Assembly: GCA_012959785.1 (NCBI GenBank)
Contig: DUCM01000021.1
Span: forward strand, 247,025 to 311,024
Source of the DNA: Planctomycetota bacterium
Lineage (GTDB): Bacteria > Planctomycetota > UBA1135 > GCA-002686595
Reading direction: 5' to 3'
DNA: 64,000 nt
Shown here: piece by piece, positions 2,054-60,558 of the stretch
How positions within the stretch are numbered: the first letter of the stretch is position 1
Layout: each line of letters opens with the position of its first letter
Program-made: the position numbers and the translations under genes
Notes under the pieces: model-generated
The model's input: only the letters and a program-made list of their open reading frames with translations
The model's database searches: none
Told to the model about the DNA's origin: nothing

Positions 2054-2068
2054 GCCTAATCCGGGCTA
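2054..2068 (-). repeat. Partial CTAGCCCGGATTA element at the small-peptide gene stop
   Basis: On the minus strand CTAGCCCGGATTA supplies the TAG stop of the 34-codon gene. Only the first half of the element is present; the ATTCATG half is missing and a run of nine C follows. Confidence 0.5.
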
Positions 2069-2170
2069 GAACAGGAAGGTGGCTCCGATGATCAAGGCGA
2101 AGAAGAGGATGGCAGGGCCTTCACTCTGGTTGGTCTTTACATAGCGCGCGGTCTTCAGGAATTGCGTCAT
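2066..2170 (-). CDS. 34-residue single-pass membrane peptide in the lexA unit
   Basis: This gene is too short for routine gene calling. Read on the minus strand from ATG at 2170, it encodes 34 residues: a basic soluble half (MTQFLKTARYVKTNQSEG) and a hydrophobic second half (PAILFFALIIGATFLF) that could just span a membrane. A purine-rich AAGGAG lies 12 nt ahead of the ATG. The stop TAG runs into CCCGGATTA, as in lexA and hflX. lexA begins 43 bp further on, and a putative LexA box covers the promoter. Known SOS-induced membrane peptides or proteins such as Caulobacter SidA (29 residues), and YneA, ChiZ and DivS beside lexA in Gram-positives, block division. A similar job is an inference from size, topology and context; there is no recognisable sequence match. 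Confidence 0.6.
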   Translation of the reverse strand: MTQFLKTARYVKTNQSEGPAILFFALIIGATFLF

Positions 2171-2219
2171 GGCGGTCTTTGTCTCCTTGAGGTCTCGAAA
2201 TTTCGGGTCGCCTGATGGT

Positions 2220-2244
2220 GGCGTGGCGAGGTGTGTTCCACGCC
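2220..2244 (-). other. 5' UTR hairpin ahead of the small-peptide/lexA unit
   Basis: GGCGTGG at 2220-2226 and CCACGCC at 2238-2244 form a 7-bp stem with an 11-nt loop. It falls between the predicted promoter and the ribosome binding site of the 34-codon gene. A perfect palindrome CGAAATTTCG also lies at 2196-2205. Either could be regulatory; there is no direct evidence. Confidence 0.3.
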
Positions 2245-2262
2245 TGCACCGAACAGATGGCT

Positions 2263-2290
2263 AATATATCGGCGGAATCCACCCGAACAA
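2263..2290 (-). promoter_or_regulatory. Putative promoter of the small-peptide/lexA unit
   Basis: On the minus strand, TTGTTC (2285-2290) and TATATT (2263-2268) are separated by 16 bp, a good sigma-70 spacing with close matches to both hexamers. The AT-rich -10 stands out in GC-rich surroundings. Transcription would start about 85 bp before the 34-codon gene. Confidence 0.5.
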
Positions 2291-2299
2291 GTCCCGAAC
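2285..2299 (-). promoter_or_regulatory. Putative LexA operator GTTC-N7-GTTC
   Basis: The minus strand reads GTTCGGGACTTGTTC, the direct-repeat form GTTC-N7-GTTC known for alphaproteobacterial LexA. The second GTTC lies inside the proposed -35 hexamer TTGTTC, so a bound repressor would block RNA polymerase. The position upstream of the unit that contains lexA fits autoregulation. Whether this lineage's LexA uses this form is not known from the sequence. Confidence 0.45.
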
Positions 2300-48804: not shown

Positions 48805-49031
48805 TGCGTGCCGGGCTATCCATGGGAATCGGGGCACTTTGCCTCGCTTGCGGGCTGTACGCCGCCAATACCCAGGCGCGTTCCCATGCGTTGGCCGCGG
48901 ATCTAGACATGCAGAAGCGCCGTTGCGACCTGCTCGAGGCCAAAAACGAGCGCACCCAGTACGAGATCAAACTATCCCTTGACCGAATCGAGGCAGAGTT
49001 CATCAACCCGACCGAGGCCATCAGCGAGTGA
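48801..49031 (+). CDS. ftsL: FtsL-like small membrane protein
   Basis: A 76-residue protein with one TM helix (AGLSMGIGALCLACGLYAA) and a following stretch that can form a coiled coil (LDMQKRRCDLLEAKNERTQYEIKL). Length, topology and place between rsmH and the division PBP gene match FtsL, whose sequence is poorly conserved. In other bacteria FtsL with FtsB and FtsQ activates FtsWI. GTG/ATG start overlaps the rsmH stop; a GTGA overlap joins it to the PBP gene. Confidence 0.65.
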   Translation: MMRAGLSMGIGALCLACGLYAANTQARSHALAADLDMQKRRCDLLEAKNERTQYEIKLSLDRIEAEFINPTEAISE

Positions 49032-51475
49032 AGATCCAATCCGCCAAGTCGCCCTGCGGGATCCGGCCCGCGTTGGCCTTCGTCTTCATCGCCGCCGTGC
49101 TCATACTTGTGGTGGGCAAGGCCTGGGTGCTGGTGACAGCGGATCCCGGAGCGGCCCATGTGAACTCGGCCAGGGAAATCACCGAGAGCCTGCCCGCGCC
49201 AAACTTTGACATCGTGGATCGAGAGGGCCGCATGCTGGCCTTGTCCGTGCAGCGCATGGACCTGGCTTTGTCGCCGCGGGCTATGTGGCAAGCCCACACA
49301 CCCCGGCGCATGGCCGAACTGATCGCGCCTCTCATCGCGAGTGATCGGGAGGGAGTGCTCACAGCCGACGACCTCATGGAGCGTTTCCTGCCCAGTAGAG
49401 ATCCGGCGGGTTGGATTTCGATCTCCGAGAATGGATGGCGGCTCGACTTTGAGATGGCCAGCCGGGTGCGCGCCTGGATCACGAAGATGGGGCTCGAAGA
49501 CGGTTTCGAACTCCTGCGTCAGGAAGATCGACCCATTTGGGATCTGTGGTGGCAGCCGGCCGTGGTGCTCTCCGAAGGTGCCCGCAATCCCCACGGCAAG
49601 GGCAACCCGCCAAAGCTTGGCGCCTGGCGCTGGGCGCGCATCATTGCCGATGGCCTGGGCCGATCCCTCTGGCCGGACCTCGATGTTTATCAGCGCAGCA
49701 ACAACTGGAAGCAGCGCGATGCGCAGCGGGCCCGCATCTGGCGCGCCCTCATGCCCAGCGCCGAAGCCGTGGTCTTTCGCGGCATCCCGGCAGGCGCGGT
49801 GCAGGATTTGATCGCCTTGCTCGATGAAGAAGGCGTCCGTTCGCACCAGATGCGTGTCGATTTCGAACACGAACGGGTGTACCCCGCGCGGGACGGTCGC
49901 GAGGAGGCTGCCTTCGCACTCCTTGGCCGCTGGCGCTTTCTCAGCGAATCGCAGGCCAGCTCCCGGGCGCAGGAGGCGTTTCCCGGAAGCGACGAGGCCT
50001 CTCTGGCGCGCCGCGAGTTGCGGCGCCGCGAGTTGCTAGACCGCAAGTTTCACCGCGACGGTCTCGAGGGCGTGGCCGGAGAGTTGCTGAACCAAGACAT
50101 CTGGAGCTATATCGCGCCGCAATCGGCGAGCTATGTTTTCCTGCGCAACCGTTCGGCTCTGGAGGGGTCCCGGCGCTACTTCCGTGAGGAGTCCTGTGAA
50201 GGTCGCACCCCGGTGGTGCACGCGACCCTAGACACCAACCTGCAGAGATTCCTCCACGAGCGCCTCGAACGGGCCATCGAGGACAATCAGGCAGCCCTGG
50301 CCATGGGCATCGTTATCGATGTTCAGAGCGGAGCGGTTCTGGCAGTGGATGGCTTCAGCGAGCCAGGCATGTGGGAGTTCCTGCCCACCTGGCACAAGTT
50401 CACTCCGGGTTCGACCTTCAAGGTGATCGTCATGGCCACCGCCATCGATGCCGGCAAGGTCACTCCCACGGACCGTTTCGACACCCACGACGGCCATTAC
50501 CGGTTGCCGAACAGCCGGCGCGTGATCCGCGAAGCACGCAACGCTCCCACGGGTACGATCACCGCCAGCCAGGCCCTCTCTCATTCGGTCAATGCGGTCA
50601 TGGTGCAGATCGGTGCCCTGTTGGACGACGATCACTTCGCCAGCAAGCTCGTCCACCTGGGCTACTCCACAAAACCAGGGAGCGGCCTGGGCACCGAGAG
50701 TTCGGGCTCGATCCCAGCGTTGCCTTGGCGACTTTCCCAGTCCCAAGCCTCGGTCAGCTTTGGCCACGAGTTGTTGGTCTCCCTCTGGCAGCACGCCGCC
50801 GGCCTGGCCACGGTGGTGCGCGGGGGAGAATTCCTGCCCCTGCACATGGTGACTGGCGTCGAATGGAATGGCGCCTTCCGCAAGTGCCAGTCAGCCGAGC
50901 CCAGCCGGGTCTTCAGCGCGGCGGCCTGTGCCGAAGTGCGCGCAATGATGGCGCAAGGCGCCAGTATCGGTACGGGTCGCCACATCACCGCGGCCGAGGA
51001 CAAACTGGGCACCCGAATCGAACTCCTGTCGAAGACCGGCACCACCGAGAAAACCGTCAGCGAGCCCTGCCTGCACCTGGAGCTGGCCCGTAACCACGGC
51101 AATCTAGGCGTCGATCGTGACGCTCCGGCCTATATCACTTTCAAGCAAATGATGACTCGCCAGCGCGAGAGTGGTCGTCCCCACAAGCGCACTTGTTATA
51201 CATCGTCAATTTGTCTGGTTGGCCGAGTCAGCGGAACGAACCGCGAGATCATGACTCTAATTGTGATAGAGGAACCCAGAGGCAAGAACAAATACGGTTC
51301 CGATGTCGCCGGCCCCACGGCTATTGCGGTGTTGAAAGAGGCCCTTGGCTTGAGCCGCGGGGGTGTGCCGGCACACATACTTGCCAACCAGCAAACCGAC
51401 TATGGCTACGAGCGAGAAGGCCTCGCCGAGGCCATGGAGCAGCCCTGGTCCGTCACCACGGAGCAGGACTATTGA
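49028..51475 (+). CDS. ftsI: Class B penicillin-binding protein (FtsI-like transpeptidase)
   Basis: An 815-residue protein, against about 550-650 for most FtsI. A TM helix is at about residues 15-37. A large N-terminal region (about 40-390) includes an unusual 200-residue section with many Trp and Arg. The transpeptidase domain has all three motifs: Ser462-Thr-Phe-Lys465 (PGSTFK), Ser520-Val-Asn522, and Lys669-Thr-Gly. It should cross-link septal peptidoglycan with FtsW. The last third-of-a-kilobase shows lower GC than the rest. GTG start overlaps the ftsL-like stop. Confidence 0.9.
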   Translation: MKIQSAKSPCGIRPALAFVFIAAVLILVVGKAWVLVTADPGAAHVNSAREITESLPAPNFDIVDREGRMLALSVQRMDLALSPRAMWQAHTPRRMAELIAPLIASDREGVLTADDLMERFLPSRDPAGWISISENGWRLDFEMASRVRAWITKMGLEDGFELLRQEDRPIWDLWWQPAVVLSEGARNPHGKGNPPKLGAWRWARIIADGLGRSLWPDLDVYQRSNNWKQRDAQRARIWRALMPSAEAVVFRGIPAGAVQDLIALLDEEGVRSHQMRVDFEHERVYPARDGREEAAFALLGRWRFLSESQASSRAQEAFPGSDEASLARRELRRRELLDRKFHRDGLEGVAGELLNQDIWSYIAPQSASYVFLRNRSALEGSRRYFREESCEGRTPVVHATLDTNLQRFLHERLERAIEDNQAALAMGIVIDVQSGAVLAVDGFSEPGMWEFLPTWHKFTPGSTFKVIVMATAIDAGKVTPTDRFDTHDGHYRLPNSRRVIREARNAPTGTITASQALSHSVNAVMVQIGALLDDDHFASKLVHLGYSTKPGSGLGTESSGSIPALPWRLSQSQASVSFGHELLVSLWQHAAGLATVVRGGEFLPLHMVTGVEWNGAFRKCQSAEPSRVFSAAACAEVRAMMAQGASIGTGRHITAAEDKLGTRIELLSKTGTTEKTVSEPCLHLELARNHGNLGVDRDAPAYITFKQMMTRQRESGRPHKRTCYTSSICLVGRVSGTNREIMTLIVIEEPRGKNKYGSDVAGPTAIAVLKEALGLSRGGVPAHILANQQTDYGYEREGLAEAMEQPWSVTTEQDY

Positions 51476-52971
51476 TGTTGAACCAACTGGTCAAGGAGTT
51501 GGGCGGAAGCTGCGCTCTGGAGGGCGTTGGACCGCTCGTGGGTGGTGTTCAATTGGACAGCCGCCAAGTGCAGAAGGGAGACCTTTTTGTCGCCTTGCCA
51601 GGAGATGTTTTCGATGGTCGGCACTATATTTCACAGGCCGTCGAAAACGGCGCAAGTGCAGTTCTCGTGCAGGAACCTTTGGATTACAAGGCTTTGGATG
51701 TATCTATACCCGAGGTTGATCGGTTGCCTGAGTGGGTGCACCCCAATGCTCGTGCGGTCGCGGGCAAGGCAGCAGCCCTCGTTCAAAGGCAGCCGGCGAA
51801 GGGTATGCATGTGATTGCCATCACGGGCACCAATGGCAAGACCACCACTGCGCACATCACGGCTGAGTTGTTGGCTGCTTGTGATTTTACCCCGGCTGTA
51901 ATCGGCACCACGGGGCACCGTCTTGCCGGCGGCCTGGCTGGCGCCACGACTCACACGACTCCCGATGCAGCGACTTTGCAAAAGCTGTTACGGCAGCACA
52001 GGGACCAGGGTGGGGACTGCGTTGTTTTGGAAGCGAGTTCACACGCTCTCGTGCAGGAGCGGCTTTCTGGGTTAGAGGTCACTTGTGCTATTTTTACAAA
52101 TCTATCCCATGATCATCTGGACTACCACGGTGACATGCAGCAATATGCGCAAGCCAAGTCACGATTGTTCGCTGGCTTGAATGAAAACGCAGTTGCCATT
52201 CTAAATGCCGACGATCCTTACACGGCCGTCATGCGTGACGCTGCGCTCGACCGAGGGGCGCGCGTCATTACCTACAGTTCGCAGTCGCCAGCCGACTTGT
52301 GTGCTTCTCTTGTTAGAGCTGACCTTGACTCTTTGTACCTGACTCTGAGTGGGATGGGTTTTTCACCGGAAAGGCTACGAATGAACCTTTTGGGTCAGTT
52401 CAATCTTGAGAACGCGCTTGCGGCAAGTGCTGCGGTACTGATGTCGGGGGCGAGTCCTTCCGCAATCGCGGAGGGACTCGCCACCGTCTCTCTTCCACCC
52501 GGACGCCTCGAGCGAGTCTCGGCGGAAGACCGGGGTTTCCATGTCTTCGTCGACTACGCCCACTCGGAGGACGCCTTGCGGAAGGCCTTGACGGCTCTGC
52601 GAGGCGCCATGGGAGAGGGATCCGGCAGATTGCATGTGGTCTTTGGCTGTGGGGGCGAGCGCGATGCGTCGAAGCGCGAGCCCATGGGCCGTGCGGCCTC
52701 GGAACTCGCCGATTCAGTCGTGCTGACCAGCGACAACCCGCGGGGCGAGAACCCCGACACGATCATTCGAGAGATCCGCGCAGGTATCTTGGGTGGGGCG
52801 ACGGTCTTTGTGGAATCAGATCGTCGCCTCGCCATCTCTTCGGCTCTGGGCGCGGCGCGCCCGGGCGATGTGGTCTTGATTGCCGGCAAGGGGCACGAGA
52901 CCCAGCAGGTGCTGGCAACTGAGAGCCTCGATTTTGATGACCGAGTCGTGGCAGTAGAGGAAATGCCTTGA
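51475..52971 (+). CDS. murE: UDP-MurNAc-tripeptide synthetase MurE (meso-Dap type)
   Basis: A 498-residue Mur ligase that adds the third peptide residue to UDP-MurNAc-L-Ala-D-Glu. The ATP loop GTNGKTTTAHI is near residues 117-127. SHDHLDYHGD marks the central domain. Asp420-Asn-Pro-Arg423 (SDNPRGENP) is the DNPR motif that selects meso-diaminopimelate, so the wall is predicted to be of Dap type. ATG 51475 shares its A with the PBP stop (TGATG). The first two thirds, to about 52440, are clearly poorer in GC than the rest. Confidence 0.96.
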   Translation: MLNQLVKELGGSCALEGVGPLVGGVQLDSRQVQKGDLFVALPGDVFDGRHYISQAVENGASAVLVQEPLDYKALDVSIPEVDRLPEWVHPNARAVAGKAAALVQRQPAKGMHVIAITGTNGKTTTAHITAELLAACDFTPAVIGTTGHRLAGGLAGATTHTTPDAATLQKLLRQHRDQGGDCVVLEASSHALVQERLSGLEVTCAIFTNLSHDHLDYHGDMQQYAQAKSRLFAGLNENAVAILNADDPYTAVMRDAALDRGARVITYSSQSPADLCASLVRADLDSLYLTLSGMGFSPERLRMNLLGQFNLENALAASAAVLMSGASPSAIAEGLATVSLPPGRLERVSAEDRGFHVFVDYAHSEDALRKALTALRGAMGEGSGRLHVVFGCGGERDASKREPMGRAASELADSVVLTSDNPRGENPDTIIREIRAGILGGATVFVESDRRLAISSALGAARPGDVVLIAGKGHETQQVLATESLDFDDRVVAVEEMP

Positions 52972-54374
52972 TCCGCTGTGACTTGAGCGAACTCGTGGCC
53001 TGCACGGCCGTGGTAGAGCTGCGCGGCGGCAGTCAGACGGTCTTTGAAGGCGTCAGCACCGACTCGCGCAGCCTGGAAGCGGGTGCCCTCTTCGTGGCCC
53101 TCATCGGTCCGCGCTTCGATGGCAACAGCTTCGCCAGGGCCGCTGCCGAACGGGGTGCCAGCGCCCTGGTGCTCGCAGGCGAGCGGGGGCAACTCGAAGC
53201 CTTGGTTGCCGATCTACCCCAGGGGGCCGCTGTGTATTGCAGCCCCGATCCCCGGCGCGTTCTCTCGGATCTCGCCTGTTTCCATCGCTCGGGCCTCGAT
53301 CTGCCCGTGATCGGGATCACCGGCTCCTGCGGCAAGACGACCACCAAGAACATTCTGGTGGATCTGCTGCGGCCCTCGCGCAAGGTGGTGGGCTCTCCCA
53401 ACTCGTTCAATAACGACATCGGCGTGCCCCACACCCTGTTCCTCGCCGACTCAGGGAGTGAGACCCTGGTGGTGGAGATGGGCACCAATCACCCCGGCGA
53501 AATCGCCGGGTTGTGTCGCACCGCGCGCCCCAATGGCGCCATCATCACCAACATCGGTTCCTCGCACCTCGAAGGGCTGTTGTCGGTGGAAGGTGTGGCG
53601 AACGAAAAAGGCGCCTTGGCCGCTTGCTTGCCGAGCAAGGGCTTCTGCGTGCTCAATGCTGACTGCCGCTTTACAGCGCGCCTGCGCGACATGACTGCCG
53701 CACGCACGATCACCTTCAGCGTGGAAGGAGACGGGGATTGGGACGCCAGCGACATCTGGTTCCATCCAGGCGGCACTACCTTTCGCTTGCGGGGACGCGA
53801 GCTGACTGTGCCGTTGCTCGGCTTGCACAATGTCCAGAACCTTCTGGCCGCCCTGGCGGCTTGCGACGGACTGGGCCTCGACCTCGATGATCTGTTGCCA
53901 CACTTGGCGCGGATTTCGGGCAGCCGTCGGCGCATGGAACTCAAGCAGTGCGGAGCGTTGTCGATTTTTGACGACACCTACAACGCCAACCCCGAATCAG
54001 CCCGGGCGAGCGTGCGGGTCCTGGCGGGGATGCACGGTTTCACTCGGCGCGTGCTGGTCTTCGGTGACATGCTTGAGCTCGGTGAGAGCGCTGAAGAGAT
54101 GCACCATGCGGTGGGGCTCATGGCGGCCGAGAGTGGCATCGACCTGTGCGTCCTGATCGGCGACCTGAGCCAAGCCACGGCGGCAGGCGCCCGCGAGGGC
54201 GGCCTGACGGATGACAAAATCGTGCACTACGACGAGGTCGAGGCCGCACAGGAGGGCCTTCCCGGTCTCCTCGCCGGTGGCGATCTAGTGCTCGTCAAGG
54301 GCAGCCGCCGCCTGGGCCTCGAACGGCTCGTGCAGGCCCTCGAAGAGCGTTGGTCAAAGGAGCGCGTGTTGTGA
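52968..54374 (+). CDS. murF: UDP-MurNAc-pentapeptide synthetase MurF
   Basis: A 468-residue Mur ligase that adds D-Ala-D-Ala. The N-terminal substrate domain has GVSTDSRSLEAGALFVAL. The ATP loop is ITGSCGKTTTKN near residue 117. NSFNNDIGVP, MGTNHPGEIAGLC and IFDDTYNANPESARAS are MurF signatures. The start is TTG at 52968, overlapping the murE stop (TTGA); no in-frame ATG lies before the domain. GC content is back to the high local level here. GTGA overlap with mraY. Confidence 0.96.
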   Translation: MIRCDLSELVACTAVVELRGGSQTVFEGVSTDSRSLEAGALFVALIGPRFDGNSFARAAAERGASALVLAGERGQLEALVADLPQGAAVYCSPDPRRVLSDLACFHRSGLDLPVIGITGSCGKTTTKNILVDLLRPSRKVVGSPNSFNNDIGVPHTLFLADSGSETLVVEMGTNHPGEIAGLCRTARPNGAIITNIGSSHLEGLLSVEGVANEKGALAACLPSKGFCVLNADCRFTARLRDMTAARTITFSVEGDGDWDASDIWFHPGGTTFRLRGRELTVPLLGLHNVQNLLAALAACDGLGLDLDDLLPHLARISGSRRRMELKQCGALSIFDDTYNANPESARASVRVLAGMHGFTRRVLVFGDMLELGESAEEMHHAVGLMAAESGIDLCVLIGDLSQATAAGAREGGLTDDKIVHYDEVEAAQEGLPGLLAGGDLVLVKGSRRLGLERLVQALEERWSKERVL

Positions 54375-55519
54375 TCCCCGCGGTCCTGGAGAACTGGCTG
54401 GGCATCCGCTTGTTCGGCTACATCACCTTTCGCGCCGTGGCTTGCGGCATGACTGCCTTCCTCCTGGCCCTCTGGTGGGGGCAACTCACCATCCGCTGGC
54501 TCAAGGCCAACAAGGTCACCGAGGATCTCACCAAGACCGATCTCGTGCCCCTAACGCGCGAGCCGGGCGCGCTCTCCAAGCGCGACACACCGACCATGGG
54601 AGGGAGCTTCCTGGTGGCGGCCCTGATCGCCTCCGTGGTGCTCTGGGGACGGTTGGACAATGTGCATGTGATCCTTGCCATCGTCCTGACAGCGGGCATG
54701 GCGGCTGTGGGCTTCGTCGATGATTTCAAGAAGCTCACCATCCCGGGCTCCCACGGCATGAGCTCGACCTCGAAGATGATCGGCCTGTCGGTGGTGGTGC
54801 TCGGAACCCTGGGGGCTCTCGTCTACTACTCGAGTTCCGCCGGACGCGACACGCTGCTCAATATCTACCCGCCCTTTTTCAACAAGCTCGTGATTCCCCT
54901 TGGCACCTGGGGTGTGCTTGGCGCGGTGATCTTTGTTGCCTTCCAGTGGCTCGTCGTGGTGGGCACAGCCAACGCCGCCAACTTCACCGATGGCCTCGAT
55001 GGCCTCGCGGCGGGCTGCATGATCATCTCGGGCGTGGCGCTGGGCGTCTTCTGCTATGTCAGTGGGCGCTTCGATTGGACCGGATACCTCAACTTGCCCC
55101 ATGTTGCCGCGGCCTCGGAAATGGCGGTGGTGGCGGCAGGCCTGTGCGGAGCTTGCATGGGTTTTCTGTGGTACAACGCTTACCCGGCCAAGGTCTTTAT
55201 GGGCGATTCGGGCAGCCTGCCCATCGGCGGGCTCTTGGCCTGGCTGGCGCTCGTCTCCAAACAAGAACTCGTGCTGCCCCTGATCGGCTGCGTGTTCTTC
55301 ATCTCCCTGGGTAGTTCCTGGCTGCAAACCTTTTACTACCGACGCAGCGGAGGCCAGCGGGTCTTTACCTGCGCGCCGCTGCATCACGGCCTGGAACGCC
55401 ACGGCGGGGTCTTTGTCGCAGGAGCGGCACCCTGGCACGAGGTCACGGTGGTGGTGCGCTTTTGGATCATCGCGGCCGTGGGAGCCATGGCCAGCTTGGC
55501 CCTCTTGAAGGTGCGCTGA
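54371..55519 (+). CDS. mraY: Phospho-MurNAc-pentapeptide translocase MraY
   Basis: A 382-residue, ten-helix membrane enzyme that makes lipid I from UDP-MurNAc-pentapeptide and undecaprenyl phosphate. SKRDTPTMGG, the catalytic Asp region VGFVDDFKK, NFTDGLDGLAAG and NAYPAKVFMGDSGSL are visible, as is the HHGLE near the end (APLHHGLERHG). GTG 54371 overlaps murF; TGATG overlap with ftsW. murD, which usually follows, is missing. Confidence 0.97.
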   Translation: MIPAVLENWLGIRLFGYITFRAVACGMTAFLLALWWGQLTIRWLKANKVTEDLTKTDLVPLTREPGALSKRDTPTMGGSFLVAALIASVVLWGRLDNVHVILAIVLTAGMAAVGFVDDFKKLTIPGSHGMSSTSKMIGLSVVVLGTLGALVYYSSSAGRDTLLNIYPPFFNKLVIPLGTWGVLGAVIFVAFQWLVVVGTANAANFTDGLDGLAAGCMIISGVALGVFCYVSGRFDWTGYLNLPHVAAASEMAVVAAGLCGACMGFLWYNAYPAKVFMGDSGSLPIGGLLAWLALVSKQELVLPLIGCVFFISLGSSWLQTFYYRRSGGQRVFTCAPLHHGLERHGGVFVAGAAPWHEVTVVVRFWIIAAVGAMASLALLKVR

Positions 55520-56721
55520 TGGCACGCTTTCGCAAGAAAAAGGGCTTCTCGTCCGAGACGACTCACGAGCACCAGACCACCATCAGCGAGCGCCTGGACG
55601 CCCTCGCGCGGCGGGCCGAGGCGCCCAACGCCATGCGGCCAGCGGTCGAGGTTTTCTGCACCGTGCTGGCGCTGCTGGCCCTGGGGCTCCTGATGCAAGC
55701 CAGCCATGCGGCCACCACGGTTCCTGGTAGCGACGCATTCCAGAGTCGCGTATTGAATCAAGCCCTGTTTTCTGGCGGCGCGATCGTGGCGCTCTTGCTG
55801 GGCTTTCGCATGGGCCCCGCGGGACTGCGGCCATTCTTGCCGCTCTTGGTTCTCGTTTGCGGGTTGATGTTGATCGGCTGCTACATCCCCGGCATCGGAG
55901 ACCCGCGCAACGGATCGAAACGCTGGATTCACATCCCCTTCGCCCAGATCAGCATTCAGCCCTCGGAACTGGCGCGCATCGTGCTCGTCGTTTGGGTCGC
56001 TGATCGTTGCGTTCGGCTGCGGCTGCGGCTTTCGGATCTGCGCCAGGGAGTCCTGCCGGTGCTCTCCCTGGGCATCTTCTTTTGCGCCCTGATCGGCTTC
56101 GAGACCGATCTTGGCGGCGCGCTGGTCTTTTTGGCGGTGTTTCTCTCCACCTGGTATGTGGGCGGTGCGAGCAGCGCCTACTTCGCCTACTCGATCACGG
56201 CCTTTGGCGGGGCGGCGGTGCTCATGGGCTTATCCAGCGTGGCCTACATTCGCGACCGCGTGGACATCTGGCTCGGAAGTTCCAAGAACGAGCAGGTCGA
56301 AGCCTCGCTGCAAGCTCTCTCCAGCGGCGAATACTTCGGCGCCGGACTGGCCCAGGGCGAGTACCGCAACATGGGCCTGCCGTACCAGGATTCGGACTAC
56401 ATCTTCTCGCTCATCGGCGAGGAGTTCGGCCTCTTTGGCATGGCTCTCTGCGCCGGGTTGATGCTGGCCTTCGTTTGGTTTTCCCTGCGCCTTGTGCTCT
56501 CGCTCAAGGACCGCTTCGCGGCTTTGGCCGCCTTCGGCCTACTGCTCTCTGTGAGTATCCAGGCCATGATTCACATGCAGGTCGTCACCGGCCTGGCACC
56601 GCCCAAGGGCATGACCCTGCCCTTCGTTTCCCACGGCGGCACATCCCTGCTTGTCTCCGCACTGGCCGTTGGATTGGCCCTTGGTGCCGCCCGGCAACAA
56701 GAGCAAGTCAGGGCCTGCTGA
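55519..56721 (+). CDS. ftsW: FtsW, SEDS peptidoglycan glycosyltransferase
   Basis: A 400-residue SEDS protein with about ten TM helices. A basic N-terminal tail (MARFRKKKGF) precedes the first helix (FCTVLALLALGLLMQAS). GSKRWIHIPFAQISIQPSEL, ETDLGGALVFLAVF with the catalytic Asp region, GLPYQDSDYIFSLIGEEFG, and the FVSHGGTSLL signature are present. FtsW polymerises lipid II at the septum with its class B PBP, here the gene at 49028. RodA is a related possibility, but the dcw position favours FtsW. Confidence 0.93.
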   Translation: MARFRKKKGFSSETTHEHQTTISERLDALARRAEAPNAMRPAVEVFCTVLALLALGLLMQASHAATTVPGSDAFQSRVLNQALFSGGAIVALLLGFRMGPAGLRPFLPLLVLVCGLMLIGCYIPGIGDPRNGSKRWIHIPFAQISIQPSELARIVLVVWVADRCVRLRLRLSDLRQGVLPVLSLGIFFCALIGFETDLGGALVFLAVFLSTWYVGGASSAYFAYSITAFGGAAVLMGLSSVAYIRDRVDIWLGSSKNEQVEASLQALSSGEYFGAGLAQGEYRNMGLPYQDSDYIFSLIGEEFGLFGMALCAGLMLAFVWFSLRLVLSLKDRFAALAAFGLLLSVSIQAMIHMQVVTGLAPPKGMTLPFVSHGGTSLLVSALAVGLALGAARQQEQVRAC

Positions 56722-56785
56722 TGTTCACATCTTTTCGTCTTTCCCAGCGACCGTTGTGTTGCGCACCCTCTTTGGAGCTTCTGGA

Positions 56786-57748
56786 ATGCAGAAAATCGAA
56801 CGCTACGGCGTGATGGCCCTGGTCCTGTTGTTGTTGACCATCGTGACCGTTTCCTTCTGGGGAGAGGGTTCCGCTGTGGCGGCCCAATCGCAGAAGATCC
56901 AGACCGCAAGTGGCGACGCGCCCGCCAAACCGACCGCACGGGACGCCGACCGTAAACTGCCCGCCACCTCGATTCCCAGTGCCAAGGCCCGCGGCCGGAA
57001 CTACCGCAACGGGGAACAGCGCCGCAACCAGAACCAGAAGAAGACCGCAGGCCGAATCGAGACCCTGCCCTTTCCCGAAGCCCTGGCCGGCAAGGGATCC
57101 AGGCCGGCAGCGAGCAACACTGGCCGGGCCCGCGGCCAGACCCTCGCGGTGGGCCGCAAGAACCCGTCGCAGGCGATGGGCCTCGCCGCCCTTGGCCACC
57201 AGGGCCAGGGCCGCAAGATGCAGCTCACACCAACACAAGCGAGGCTCGGCGTTACCAGCCCAAGCAAGGCTGCGTCCAGCCCGCGGGTGCACATCGTGCA
57301 GGCCGGAGACACTCTGGGCGAAATCGCCTACGCCGCCCTGGGCACGAGCAAGCGCTGGCGCGAGATCGCTGACTTGAACGGCGGCTCCGAGCGCATCTTT
57401 CTCGGCCAGCGCCTCAAGCTGCCCGCCGGCGGTACAGACATCGCCACGAACAATTCGAACGCCTCCGCGCAGAAGGCAGCCCCGTCCGTGGCCCAAACTT
57501 CCAAAGCCGCGCCCACAGTTGGCAGCCACACCTATGTGGTTCGGCCGGGTGACATGCTTTCTGTGATCGCCCAGCGCGAACTCGGTAGCGCCCGCCGTTG
57601 GCGCGACATCGTGGCCTTGAACCCTGGCCTGGACCCCGACTCCCTGTCGGTTGGTGCGCGCCTGGTGATGCCCCGGGGGAAGTCCTCCGGCAGGAACTTG
57701 TTGGCCCAAGCCAGAACATCGGCGACGAAGGTGGGGAGGGTGCGATGA
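56786..57748 (+). CDS. Membrane protein with two LysM domains in the dcw cluster
   Basis: A 320-residue protein. An N-terminal TM helix (YGVMALVLLLLTIVTVSFW) is followed by a long basic, low-complexity linker (about residues 30-165). LysM 1 is at about 168-215 (VHIVQAGDTLGEIAYAALG) and LysM 2 at about 248-295 (TYVVRPGDMLSVIAQRELG). LysM binds peptidoglycan glycan strands, so it may guide wall synthesis or link membrane to wall. Such a gene is not part of the standard dcw set. It lies between ftsW (64 bp gap) and a small gene (ATGA overlap). Confidence 0.82.
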   Translation: MQKIERYGVMALVLLLLTIVTVSFWGEGSAVAAQSQKIQTASGDAPAKPTARDADRKLPATSIPSAKARGRNYRNGEQRRNQNQKKTAGRIETLPFPEALAGKGSRPAASNTGRARGQTLAVGRKNPSQAMGLAALGHQGQGRKMQLTPTQARLGVTSPSKAASSPRVHIVQAGDTLGEIAYAALGTSKRWREIADLNGGSERIFLGQRLKLPAGGTDIATNNSNASAQKAAPSVAQTSKAAPTVGSHTYVVRPGDMLSVIAQRELGSARRWRDIVALNPGLDPDSLSVGARLVMPRGKSSGRNLLAQARTSATKVGRVR

Positions 57749-57966
57749 GTCGCTCGCTGCACCTCGGTTTTCTTCTCGGCTGCCTTACGGTGGGTGCGAT
57801 CACGGCCGGGCCGGCCTGGACTGTGCTGGCTTGTCCTGCGCCGCTGGCGGCGCTCACCTCCGGCGGTTGCGAGTTGCGCTTGGCGAGTAGGTTGGTCCCT
57901 GACGCAACCCCGCTGCTAGACGAGCCGACCGCGTTGAATGACCTGGCTTTGATCGAGGCCCGCTGA
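57745..57966 (+). CDS. Small exported or membrane protein in the dcw cluster
   Basis: A 73-residue product with an N-terminal hydrophobic segment (LHLGFLLGCLTVGAITAG) and a short tail with two cysteines (ACPAPL and GCELRL). It is coupled by ATGA to the LysM gene and lies 2 bp ahead of murG. Not recognised. It could be a short septal factor, or a non-essential linker gene. Confidence 0.55.
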   Translation: MSRSLHLGFLLGCLTVGAITAGPAWTVLACPAPLAALTSGGCELRLASRLVPDATPLLDEPTALNDLALIEAR

Positions 57967-57968
57967 CC

Positions 57969-59075
57969 GTGCGCGTCGCCTTTGCCGGCGGCGGCACGGG
58001 CGGGCACATCGTGCCCGGCCTGCACCTCGTGGCCCGCTCCCTGGCCGGGGGCGATGCGCCGCGTCTCGACGACCTCCTGTGGTTCACCAGCGGCCGCGCC
58101 GTGGAACAGCGCGTGCTCGCCGAGGTGCCCCGGGAGTTGCCCTGGGAGCAGGTGAAACTCTCCCTCGAACCTCCCGGCGGTGGCGCGCCTTCCAGGTTGC
58201 GGCTCATAGCGCAAACGCCGCGGGCCTTCTGGTCGGCCCGGTGCGCCCTGCGCCGGCACCAGAGCCAGGTCCTCTTGGGTCTAGGGGGTTTCACCACCCT
58301 GCCCGCCGCTCTCGCTGCGCGTTCCCTTGGGATTCCGGTCGTGCTGCTCGAGATCAACGCCGCCCCCGGCCAGGCCACTCGGGTCCTGGGGCCACTTGCG
58401 AGCCGAGTGCTGCACGCCTGGCGCGGCAGTTTGCCCGATGGCGTGGAGAGTCGGCGGCACCGCTTGGCTGGCGCTCCCGTGGCGCCCGAGGTCGCGGCGG
58501 CTCGCATCCCCGAAAGCCAGGAGGCCGAGGCGCTCACGGCTCTGGGCTTCGATCCAGAGCGCCCGCTGATTCTGGTTCTGGGAGGCAGCCAGGGGGCCAG
58601 TAGCCTGAATCGCTTTGTGGAAGAGTACGCGCATTTGTGGATCTCCGCCGGCTCGCAAGTCCTGCACCAGTGCGGCCCGAAAAAACGCGCCGAGCTTGGC
58701 CCCCAGCGTCCGGGGCTTAGGGTCCGCGAATACATCGCCCCCATGGCGCCGGCCCTGGCCGCGGCGCGAGTGGTCCTCTGCCGTGGCGGAGCCTCAACCC
58801 TGGCGGAAATCGCCGTGGCACAGGTGCCGGCCTGGGTCGTGCCCTACCCGTACCACGCCGACCGGCACCAGGAGCGCAACGCCAGGGAGTTGGGCGAGGG
58901 AGTACGCATCGTCTCCGAGGCCTCACTCGACCGCCAGCACGCCACCCTGCTGGCCGAGTTCGCCGGTGCGGGAGGGGCCCGGGCTCGCGAGGTGATGCGT
59001 CAGGCCCTGGCCCGAGCCAGCGCCGAAGACAGTGCGCTGCAAATCTTACTGGAGCTTGAGTCACTGGCCCGTTGA
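57969..59075 (+). CDS. murG: MurG, lipid II-forming GlcNAc transferase
   Basis: A 368-residue GT28 enzyme that adds GlcNAc to lipid I at the inner membrane face. GGGTGGHI at residues 7-14, LGLGGFTTLPAALAA near 97, LGGSQGASSLN near 205 and CRGGASTLAEIAVAQVPAWV near 270 are the G-loops and donor-binding motifs. GTG 57969 is 2 bp after the preceding stop. murC follows 31 bp later. Confidence 0.96.
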   Translation: MRVAFAGGGTGGHIVPGLHLVARSLAGGDAPRLDDLLWFTSGRAVEQRVLAEVPRELPWEQVKLSLEPPGGGAPSRLRLIAQTPRAFWSARCALRRHQSQVLLGLGGFTTLPAALAARSLGIPVVLLEINAAPGQATRVLGPLASRVLHAWRGSLPDGVESRRHRLAGAPVAPEVAAARIPESQEAEALTALGFDPERPLILVLGGSQGASSLNRFVEEYAHLWISAGSQVLHQCGPKKRAELGPQRPGLRVREYIAPMAPALAAARVVLCRGGASTLAEIAVAQVPAWVVPYPYHADRHQERNARELGEGVRIVSEASLDRQHATLLAEFAGAGGARAREVMRQALARASAEDSALQILLELESLAR

Positions 59076-59106
59076 TTGGCCCGCCACGATTGCTACCTTC
59101 GGGCTC

Positions 59107-60558
59107 GTGAAGACCATCCAAGACGAGCTTCCCCAACGAATCCATCTCGTGGGCATCGGCGGCGCCGGCTTGAGCGGCGCGGCGCGCATCCTCTGCGAGC
59201 GAGGCCGACGCATCAGCGGAAGCGACCGGGCAGCCTCGGATTTCAGCGAGGCGCTGGAGGATCTCGACTTGACGGTCACCGTGGGCTCCACGCGCCCGCC
59301 CTTGGCGGACGATGTCGAGTTGGTGGTGCGGTCCTCGGCGGTGCCCCTCGAAGATACCGACTGCGCCGCCGCCTTGGCCCGCGGCCTGCCTGTTTGGAAG
59401 TACGCGCAACTCCTGGGCTGCATGACTCCAGCCGGACGCACCCTCGCCGTGGCCGGCACCCACGGCAAGACCAGCGTGACCTGGATGTTGGCCCATGCCC
59501 TGGGCGGCCTCGAGGCACAGCTCGGACCCACCGCGCCGGCCTCAGGTTTTCTCGTGGGGGGCCTCGACTGCAAACTCAAGACCAACGCCCGCAGCGAAGA
59601 GCCCGGTGGTTGGTTCGCCGTCGAGGCTTGTGAGTACGACCGCAGTTTTTTGCAGCTCCATCCCCAGGGCGCCATCGTGACCAACATCGAGGCCGATCAC
59701 CTCGACTACTACGGCACTCTCGACAAAATCCACGAGTCCTTTGGCCGCTTCGTCGACCGCGTGCATCCCCAGGGCCTTGTGGTGGTGGGGGAGGATGTGC
59801 CTGACCGGGTGGTGGCCGCCTCGCGGGCGCGGGTTTGGCGCCTCGGCCGGGAGTTGCGCGTGGAGCTCACTGGCGAAGAGCGGGGTTGTTTCCGTTTTCG
59901 CCTGCTCGGTCCGGGTTGGGCTACCCCCGAGGTTCAGCTCACGCAACCCGGACGCTTTCAAGTGGACAACGCAGCTCTGGCCTTGGCCCTCGTGGTGGGA
60001 CTTGCCGCCCCGGCCTGGAGCCTCGAACCCGCCGCCGCGGCTCGCGCCGCGGCCAGCGGCCTGGATCAGTTTCGCGGCGTGCGACGCCGCTTTGAGAAGT
60101 GGGGCAGCGACCACGGCGTGGAGGTCATTCACGACTACGCGCACCATCCCACCGAAGTGCGCGTAACCCTCGAGGCGGCGCGGCGCGCCTTGCCGGGACT
60201 GCCCTTGCATGTGCTCTTTCAGCCCCATCAACACAGCCGTACAGCGCGCTTCATGGCCGAGTTCGTGGAGAGCCTGCGCGGAGCCGACCGGGTCATCGTG
60301 GCCGATGTCTACGGAGCGCGAGTGCACATCGACCAACACGGAGCGGGCGCTGATGAGCTGGTTCAGCGCCTGGGCCGCGCCGGTATCCCGGCCCTCGCCG
60401 GCGGCGATCTTCAAAGCAGCGTGCACCAGGCTGCCCGCGCCCTTCCCGGAGGCTGCGCCCTGCTCGTTCTGGGCGCCGGCGATATCGACACCATCCGTTA
60501 TGACTTGTTCCTTGAGCTGGCCCTGCGCCGCGCTCCCCAGCGCACCTCTGGCGCCTAG
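59107..60558 (+). CDS. murC: UDP-N-acetylmuramate-L-alanine ligase MurC
   Basis: A 483-residue Mur ligase that adds L-Ala to UDP-MurNAc. HLVGIGGAGLSGAARIL at residues 13-29 is the UDP-binding loop (usually GIGGxGMSG; Leu replaces Met here). The ATP loop is AGTHGKTSVTWM near 115-126. EACEYDRSFL, IEADHLDYYG and DYAHHPTEVRVTL follow the family. GTG 59107 places the glycine loop at the normal distance. The end may overlap the start of murB. MurB follows directly, as in many clusters. Confidence 0.96.
   Translation: MKTIQDELPQRIHLVGIGGAGLSGAARILCERGRRISGSDRAASDFSEALEDLDLTVTVGSTRPPLADDVELVVRSSAVPLEDTDCAAALARGLPVWKYAQLLGCMTPAGRTLAVAGTHGKTSVTWMLAHALGGLEAQLGPTAPASGFLVGGLDCKLKTNARSEEPGGWFAVEACEYDRSFLQLHPQGAIVTNIEADHLDYYGTLDKIHESFGRFVDRVHPQGLVVVGEDVPDRVVAASRARVWRLGRELRVELTGEERGCFRFRLLGPGWATPEVQLTQPGRFQVDNAALALALVVGLAAPAWSLEPAAAARAAASGLDQFRGVRRRFEKWGSDHGVEVIHDYAHHPTEVRVTLEAARRALPGLPLHVLFQPHQHSRTARFMAEFVESLRGADRVIVADVYGARVHIDQHGAGADELVQRLGRAGIPALAGGDLQSSVHQAARALPGGCALLVLGAGDIDTIRYDLFLELALRRAPQRTSGA

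Follow-up and report, generated by a model that had tools for sequence, protein, structure and literature searches.

The window analyzed here, a stretch of 64,000 nt, carries lexA on the minus strand at 1402–2022, with matches to both LexA_DNA_bind (PF01726) and Peptidase_S24 (PF00717). Ahead of it, in the same orientation, is a short frame (2066–2170, minus strand) that starts with ATG, ends with TAG and translates as MTQFLKTARYVKTNQSEGPAILFFALIIGATFLF; the two are separated by 43 bp (2023–2065), lexA being the second gene of the presumed unit. A Shine–Dalgarno-like AAGGAG (2183–2188, minus strand) stands 12 nt ahead of the ATG, which is a long spacing. Thus, the 34-codon frame of the original prediction, with AAGGAG before it and lexA 43 bp after it, was confirmed in the sequence. 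On its far side, away from the peptide frame, lexA is neighboured by the end of a 23S gene and a 5S gene.

A single transmembrane segment is predicted for the 34-aa product, and the AlphaFold model has a helix at residues 18–33 with pLDDT around 90; the peptide would be tail-anchored. The usual length in the family is 28 aa, and with respect to the family consensus, M[TA][RQK]hhhxxARx[DE]xxSYxFFxxLxAxTFLV (28 residues; alignment A2, 34 rows), this copy has a 6-residue insert.

We located lexA in 53 of 61 genomes (the source genome and 60 relatives), most of which are apparently metagenome-assembled drafts. In nearly every family locus a frame ending in SYxFFxxLxAxTFLV-stop was seen upstream of lexA, and in about 40 family genomes the peptide stands just upstream of it. 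The original prediction had staked itself on conservation of the frame in relatives, and conservation was found. Co-absence of lexA and the peptide in six genomes was left out of consideration; with an rRNA operon adjoining lexA in the window, it may reflect assembly gaps.

A profile built from 24 frames was searched over 101 whole genomes and gave one significant match per family genome. All 30 matches examined as loci adjoin lexA, as do additional ones fetched by hand. Among genomes outside the training set the match was upstream of lexA in 16 of 16, with E < 0.01 in 15 of them and a weak match (E 0.08) in the remaining one, G069. One more match, in G019 (E 0.006), contains an internal stop and has no adjoining lexA; it was taken as noise. 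In the genomes searched, the peptide is found only at lexA. Scans of all 34 peptides against Pfam and NCBIfam returned chance-level matches only, that is, no model and no domain.

The peptide frame is better conserved than its flanks. Differences counted over eight pairs of related genomes numbered 30/17/73 at the three codon positions, an excess at the third position (p = 7e-10); the codon substitutions show purifying selection on the peptide. Geometry is preserved as well: in 36 of 40 family peptides the final charged residue is followed by exactly 17 others, and this final charge is acidic in 36 of 40. Judged from these sequence features, the frame is a real gene under selection with a predicted single-transmembrane product, a membrane peptide gene that is conserved in the family and missing from the annotation.

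One could ask whether translation alone, rather than the product, matters, the peptide acting as a leader whose translation tunes expression of lexA. It does lie ahead of lexA on the same strand, and its stop codon overlaps or abuts the lexA start in some families; we consider this explanation very improbable, however, as it is the amino acids that are conserved, with change in excess at third positions, and as the distance from peptide to lexA varies from ∼5 to 650 bp, which speaks against coupling by one shared mechanism.

In other families of the order we see peptides that cannot be aligned with those described above but share their build and place, e.g. MKSTQPEFSRSDLEAALLVTLLLVAFILI (aligned within family f5): an acidic residue, ∼17 hydrophobic or uncharged residues, then the stop. 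Over the phylum sample the profile found family members and chance-level matches, with nothing convincing outside the family; hence, beyond the family, only build and position serve to recognise relatives. We applied fixed criteria: an ATG start, 20–110 aa, a membrane segment in the final 22 residues and a stop no more than 320 bp before lexA. Frames of this kind were present at 37 of 43 loci in the family, 16 of 21 in the rest of the order and 19 of 86 in the rest of the phylum; the reverse-strand controls gave 0 (of the 43), 2 and 1, respectively, and dinucleotide shuffles 0%, 0% and 1%. Short frames are common in DNA of 65% G+C, and in a leader rich in G+C an open frame might arise by chance; this explanation is contradicted by the family counts against both controls, by the out-of-training matches, all of which are at lexA, and by the codon selection. 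For 36 peptides of other groups, which were sought only upstream of lexA, the commonest number of residues after the last charge was again 17, and the last charge was acidic in 34.

Presence of the peptide follows the LexA tree: 149 loci placed on it (FastTree; 16 of the 149 labels rest on relaxed criteria) show 7 changes between presence and absence. Such a pattern fits both a single origin followed by losses and a recurrent exchange of one micropeptide for another, with the constraint kept.

A LexA-like repeat and a promoter had been predicted ahead of the peptide. The repeat turned out to be two boxes on the minus strand: box 1, TTCGGGACTTGTTCGG (2283–2298), a GTTC-N7-GTTC direct repeat with no mismatches to the consensus, and box 2, TTAGCCATCTGTTCGG (2249–2264), with two mismatches. 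The promoter fared less clearly: candidate elements can be recognised by eye, a presumed −35 TTGTTC (2285–2290) and a presumed −10 TATATT (2263–2268) spaced by 16 nt (2263–2290, minus strand), but a generic promoter scan left it below threshold and reported no sigma-70-like promoter in 1300–2500. The two boxes flank the presumed −10, box 2 overlapping it.

With the pattern [GA]TT[CA]GGGTCTTGTT[CA]GGGT (i.e. GTTC-N7-GTTC), a box was found upstream of the peptide at 37 of 43 family loci, in tandem at 24, and the reversed pattern gave 1 match. Tandem boxes in the relatives are usually spaced by 34–37 bp, and the distance from box to peptide ranges from ∼40 to 700 nt. At none of the 43 loci was a box present within 400 bp after the peptide, nor was there one between peptide and lexA. 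As the boxes precede the peptide and never separate it from lexA, the peptide should be the first gene of the transcript, and the transcript is probably autoregulated by LexA. Among the functions that we infer, control by LexA, with LexA binding and SOS induction, is the best supported. In some relatives (loci L127 in G012 and L134 in G010) the boxes are >1 kb away from lexA on its upstream side, and long open frames occupy the interval.

The GTTC-N7-GTTC repeat is known as the LexA motif of alphaproteobacteria (PMC8565304), and planctomycete LexA has been reported not to use the Escherichia coli motif (PMC3108266). The family box is identical to the alphaproteobacterial motif, presumably by convergence.

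Exact box matches in the source genome numbered two, against none for the control. The only one away from the lexA promoter (G000:C5:251110) is situated ∼10 bp before a gene for an MrfA-type DEAD helicase with the MrfA Zn-binding domain (locus L060, 1034–3601, minus strand), which suggests that this helicase, of a mitomycin-repair type, belongs to the SOS regulon of the source organism. A scan allowing one mismatch gave 19 matches, as many as the reversed-pattern control; one of these boxes precedes a gene for a DnaE-type polymerase with an additional match to the model of error-prone DnaE2. Since one-mismatch boxes are at control level, the weight lies on the lexA promoter only. Behind other single boxes in the relatives we saw no clear SOS gene.

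Taken with the evidence for selection, the boxes leave the predicted SOS membrane peptide well supported: a selected single-transmembrane gene shares with lexA a unit that appears to be controlled by LexA boxes. The peptide is probably made after DNA damage. In an undamaged cell LexA bound to the two boxes would repress both peptide and lexA; upon damage, cleavage of LexA would allow the peptide to be made and to insert as one helix, with its N-terminus inside and its C-terminus ending at the outer face of the membrane. New LexA from the same transcript would later shut the peptide off.

What such a peptide does in the membrane could be sought among known SOS peptides. Type I toxins of the TisB and DinQ kind come with an antisense RNA and a structured leader. 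The E. coli membrane toxins TisB and DinQ are themselves SOS single-transmembrane peptides (PMC3567139), of ∼30 aa, with an inner-membrane helix, and the size, hydrophobicity and LexA-type control of the present peptide would agree with a toxin that depolarises the inner membrane and makes cells dormant after damage. Yet TisB and DinQ are stand-alone genes with an antisense RNA antitoxin and no linkage to lexA, whereas the peptide presumably shares its transcript with lexA. The variable interval between box and peptide and the poor conservation of the flanks also speak against a toxin; furthermore, the generic scan showed no antisense promoter and Rfam no family at the peptide–lexA locus, though these searches do not prove absence. 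We regard a toxin as a rather improbable explanation.

A closer parallel may be the division inhibitors. In other phyla the single-transmembrane SOS division inhibitors SosA, YneA and ChiZ adjoin lexA, sharing position and not sequence (PMC6851548). The peptide resembles the Gram-positive YneA, SosA, ChiZ and DivS in its single membrane segment, in adjoining lexA, in its LexA-type boxes and in keeping its position while the sequence diverges. There are differences, too: sosA is divergent from lexA, whereas the peptide is the first gene of a presumed transcript shared with it. The SOS-induced SidA of Caulobacter, 29 aa long and interacting with FtsW (PMC4211646), has about the same length as the peptide, a single membrane segment and no large extracytoplasmic domain, a likeness of length and build, not of compared sequences; LexA control is expected for both, the peptide having LexA-type boxes. 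The division block and FtsW interaction of SidA were tested by experiment in an alphaproteobacterium that uses FtsZ; the hosts of the peptide have no detectable FtsZ, and for the peptide both would be predictions.

FtsZ was undetectable in all 41 genomes searched (the source genome and 40 relatives), and both FtsW and a division-type PBP are encoded in the dcw cluster of the window, in agreement with what had been predicted on both counts. The PBP gene (49028–51475, plus strand) heads the cluster and precedes murE; its product has PBP2/SpoVD/FtsI-type matches below curated cut-offs. The FtsW-type SEDS polymerase (55462–56721, plus strand) has TIGR02614 ftsW as its best match (243.7 bits, below the curated cut-off). 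The cluster as a whole (49028–60558) contains genes for the PBP, murE, murF, mraY, ftsW, a LysM-like protein (56651–57748) adjoining ftsW, murG and murC. Co-occurrence of the peptide with FtsW/RodA was considered as evidence and set aside as non-discriminating; FtsW/RodA proteins are present in 119 of 119 phylum genomes and are equally common where the peptide is missing. In Planctopirus limnophila, a budding planctomycete, ftsW and ftsI are dispensable (PMC6952346).

The transmembrane segment of YneA binds TM7 of FtsW, and models of low confidence dock SidA, SosA and ChiZ onto it as well (PMC13396833). Given these precedents, the absence of FtsZ and the presence of FtsW and the PBP, the leading explanation is a checkpoint that targets FtsW or its partner. 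The peptide would bind a divisome membrane protein, FtsW with its PBP being the first candidate, and septal wall synthesis would be the step blocked; with a target of this sort FtsZ would not be needed. That the peptide halts cell division, the ‘division brake’ of the original prediction, is plausible by analogy, and to the complete proposal (an SOS-induced tail-anchored micropeptide of a LexA-autoregulated operon serving as a division checkpoint, with FtsW and the PBP as first candidate) we would give about an even chance.

Against this proposal stand the dispensability of ftsW and ftsI in P. limnophila and the equal frequency of FtsW/RodA proteins in genomes lacking the peptide, and so does the build of the peptide. 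The membrane segment of YneA alone does not block division, the LysM domain being needed, and for SosA the outer part is required (PMC13396833, PMC6851548). While an outer domain or tail matters for inhibition by YneA, ChiZ and SosA, the peptide frames have no outer part and stop where the membrane segment ends; any target must therefore be one that can be reached by a single helix that barely extends beyond the membrane. In addition, sequences differ strongly between families, so that no one conserved target surface stands out.

Single-transmembrane micropeptides are often regulators of membrane proteins. The peptide may be SOS-induced and have another membrane target, modulating a transporter or protease, the attachment of the nucleoid or the signalling of envelope stress, with no direct stop of division. 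The sequence evidence would fit any partner bound helix to helix, and the SOS single-transmembrane peptide DinQ alters nucleoid compaction and conjugal recombination, not filamentation (PMC3567139). Two observations weigh against such a target: in other phyla SOS division inhibitors recur at the place next to lexA (PMC6851548), and the peptide–lexA unit revealed no further conserved partner gene. We rate this explanation as less likely than the checkpoint and more likely than a toxin, the two alternatives being the main rivals of the checkpoint.

On the question of how bacteria without FtsZ divide, and how they delay division upon DNA damage, a conserved micropeptide wired into the lexA operon offers a direct genetic handle, as the binding partner should belong to the membrane machinery that the cell must stop. 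Extending the division checkpoint to all these families, one could speculate that tail-anchored micropeptides of the LexA operon form an undescribed class, present in many families of Planctomycetota, inherited with LexA, with fixed geometry and sequence turnover, and serving as an SOS division checkpoint where FtsZ is absent; the chances of this broader view seem to us a little short of even. The peptide further suggests that a membrane-acting SOS peptide at lexA is an answer arrived at repeatedly in different phyla.

Genes of 25–35 codons with no Pfam or NCBIfam model have here been missed by annotation beside one of the best-known regulators; in the literature that we searched on planctomycete LexA there was no description of a peptide–lexA unit. 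Elsewhere in the source genome we observed a second S24-peptidase match (G000:C21:389179-389352, locus L002), located in a 288-aa frame.
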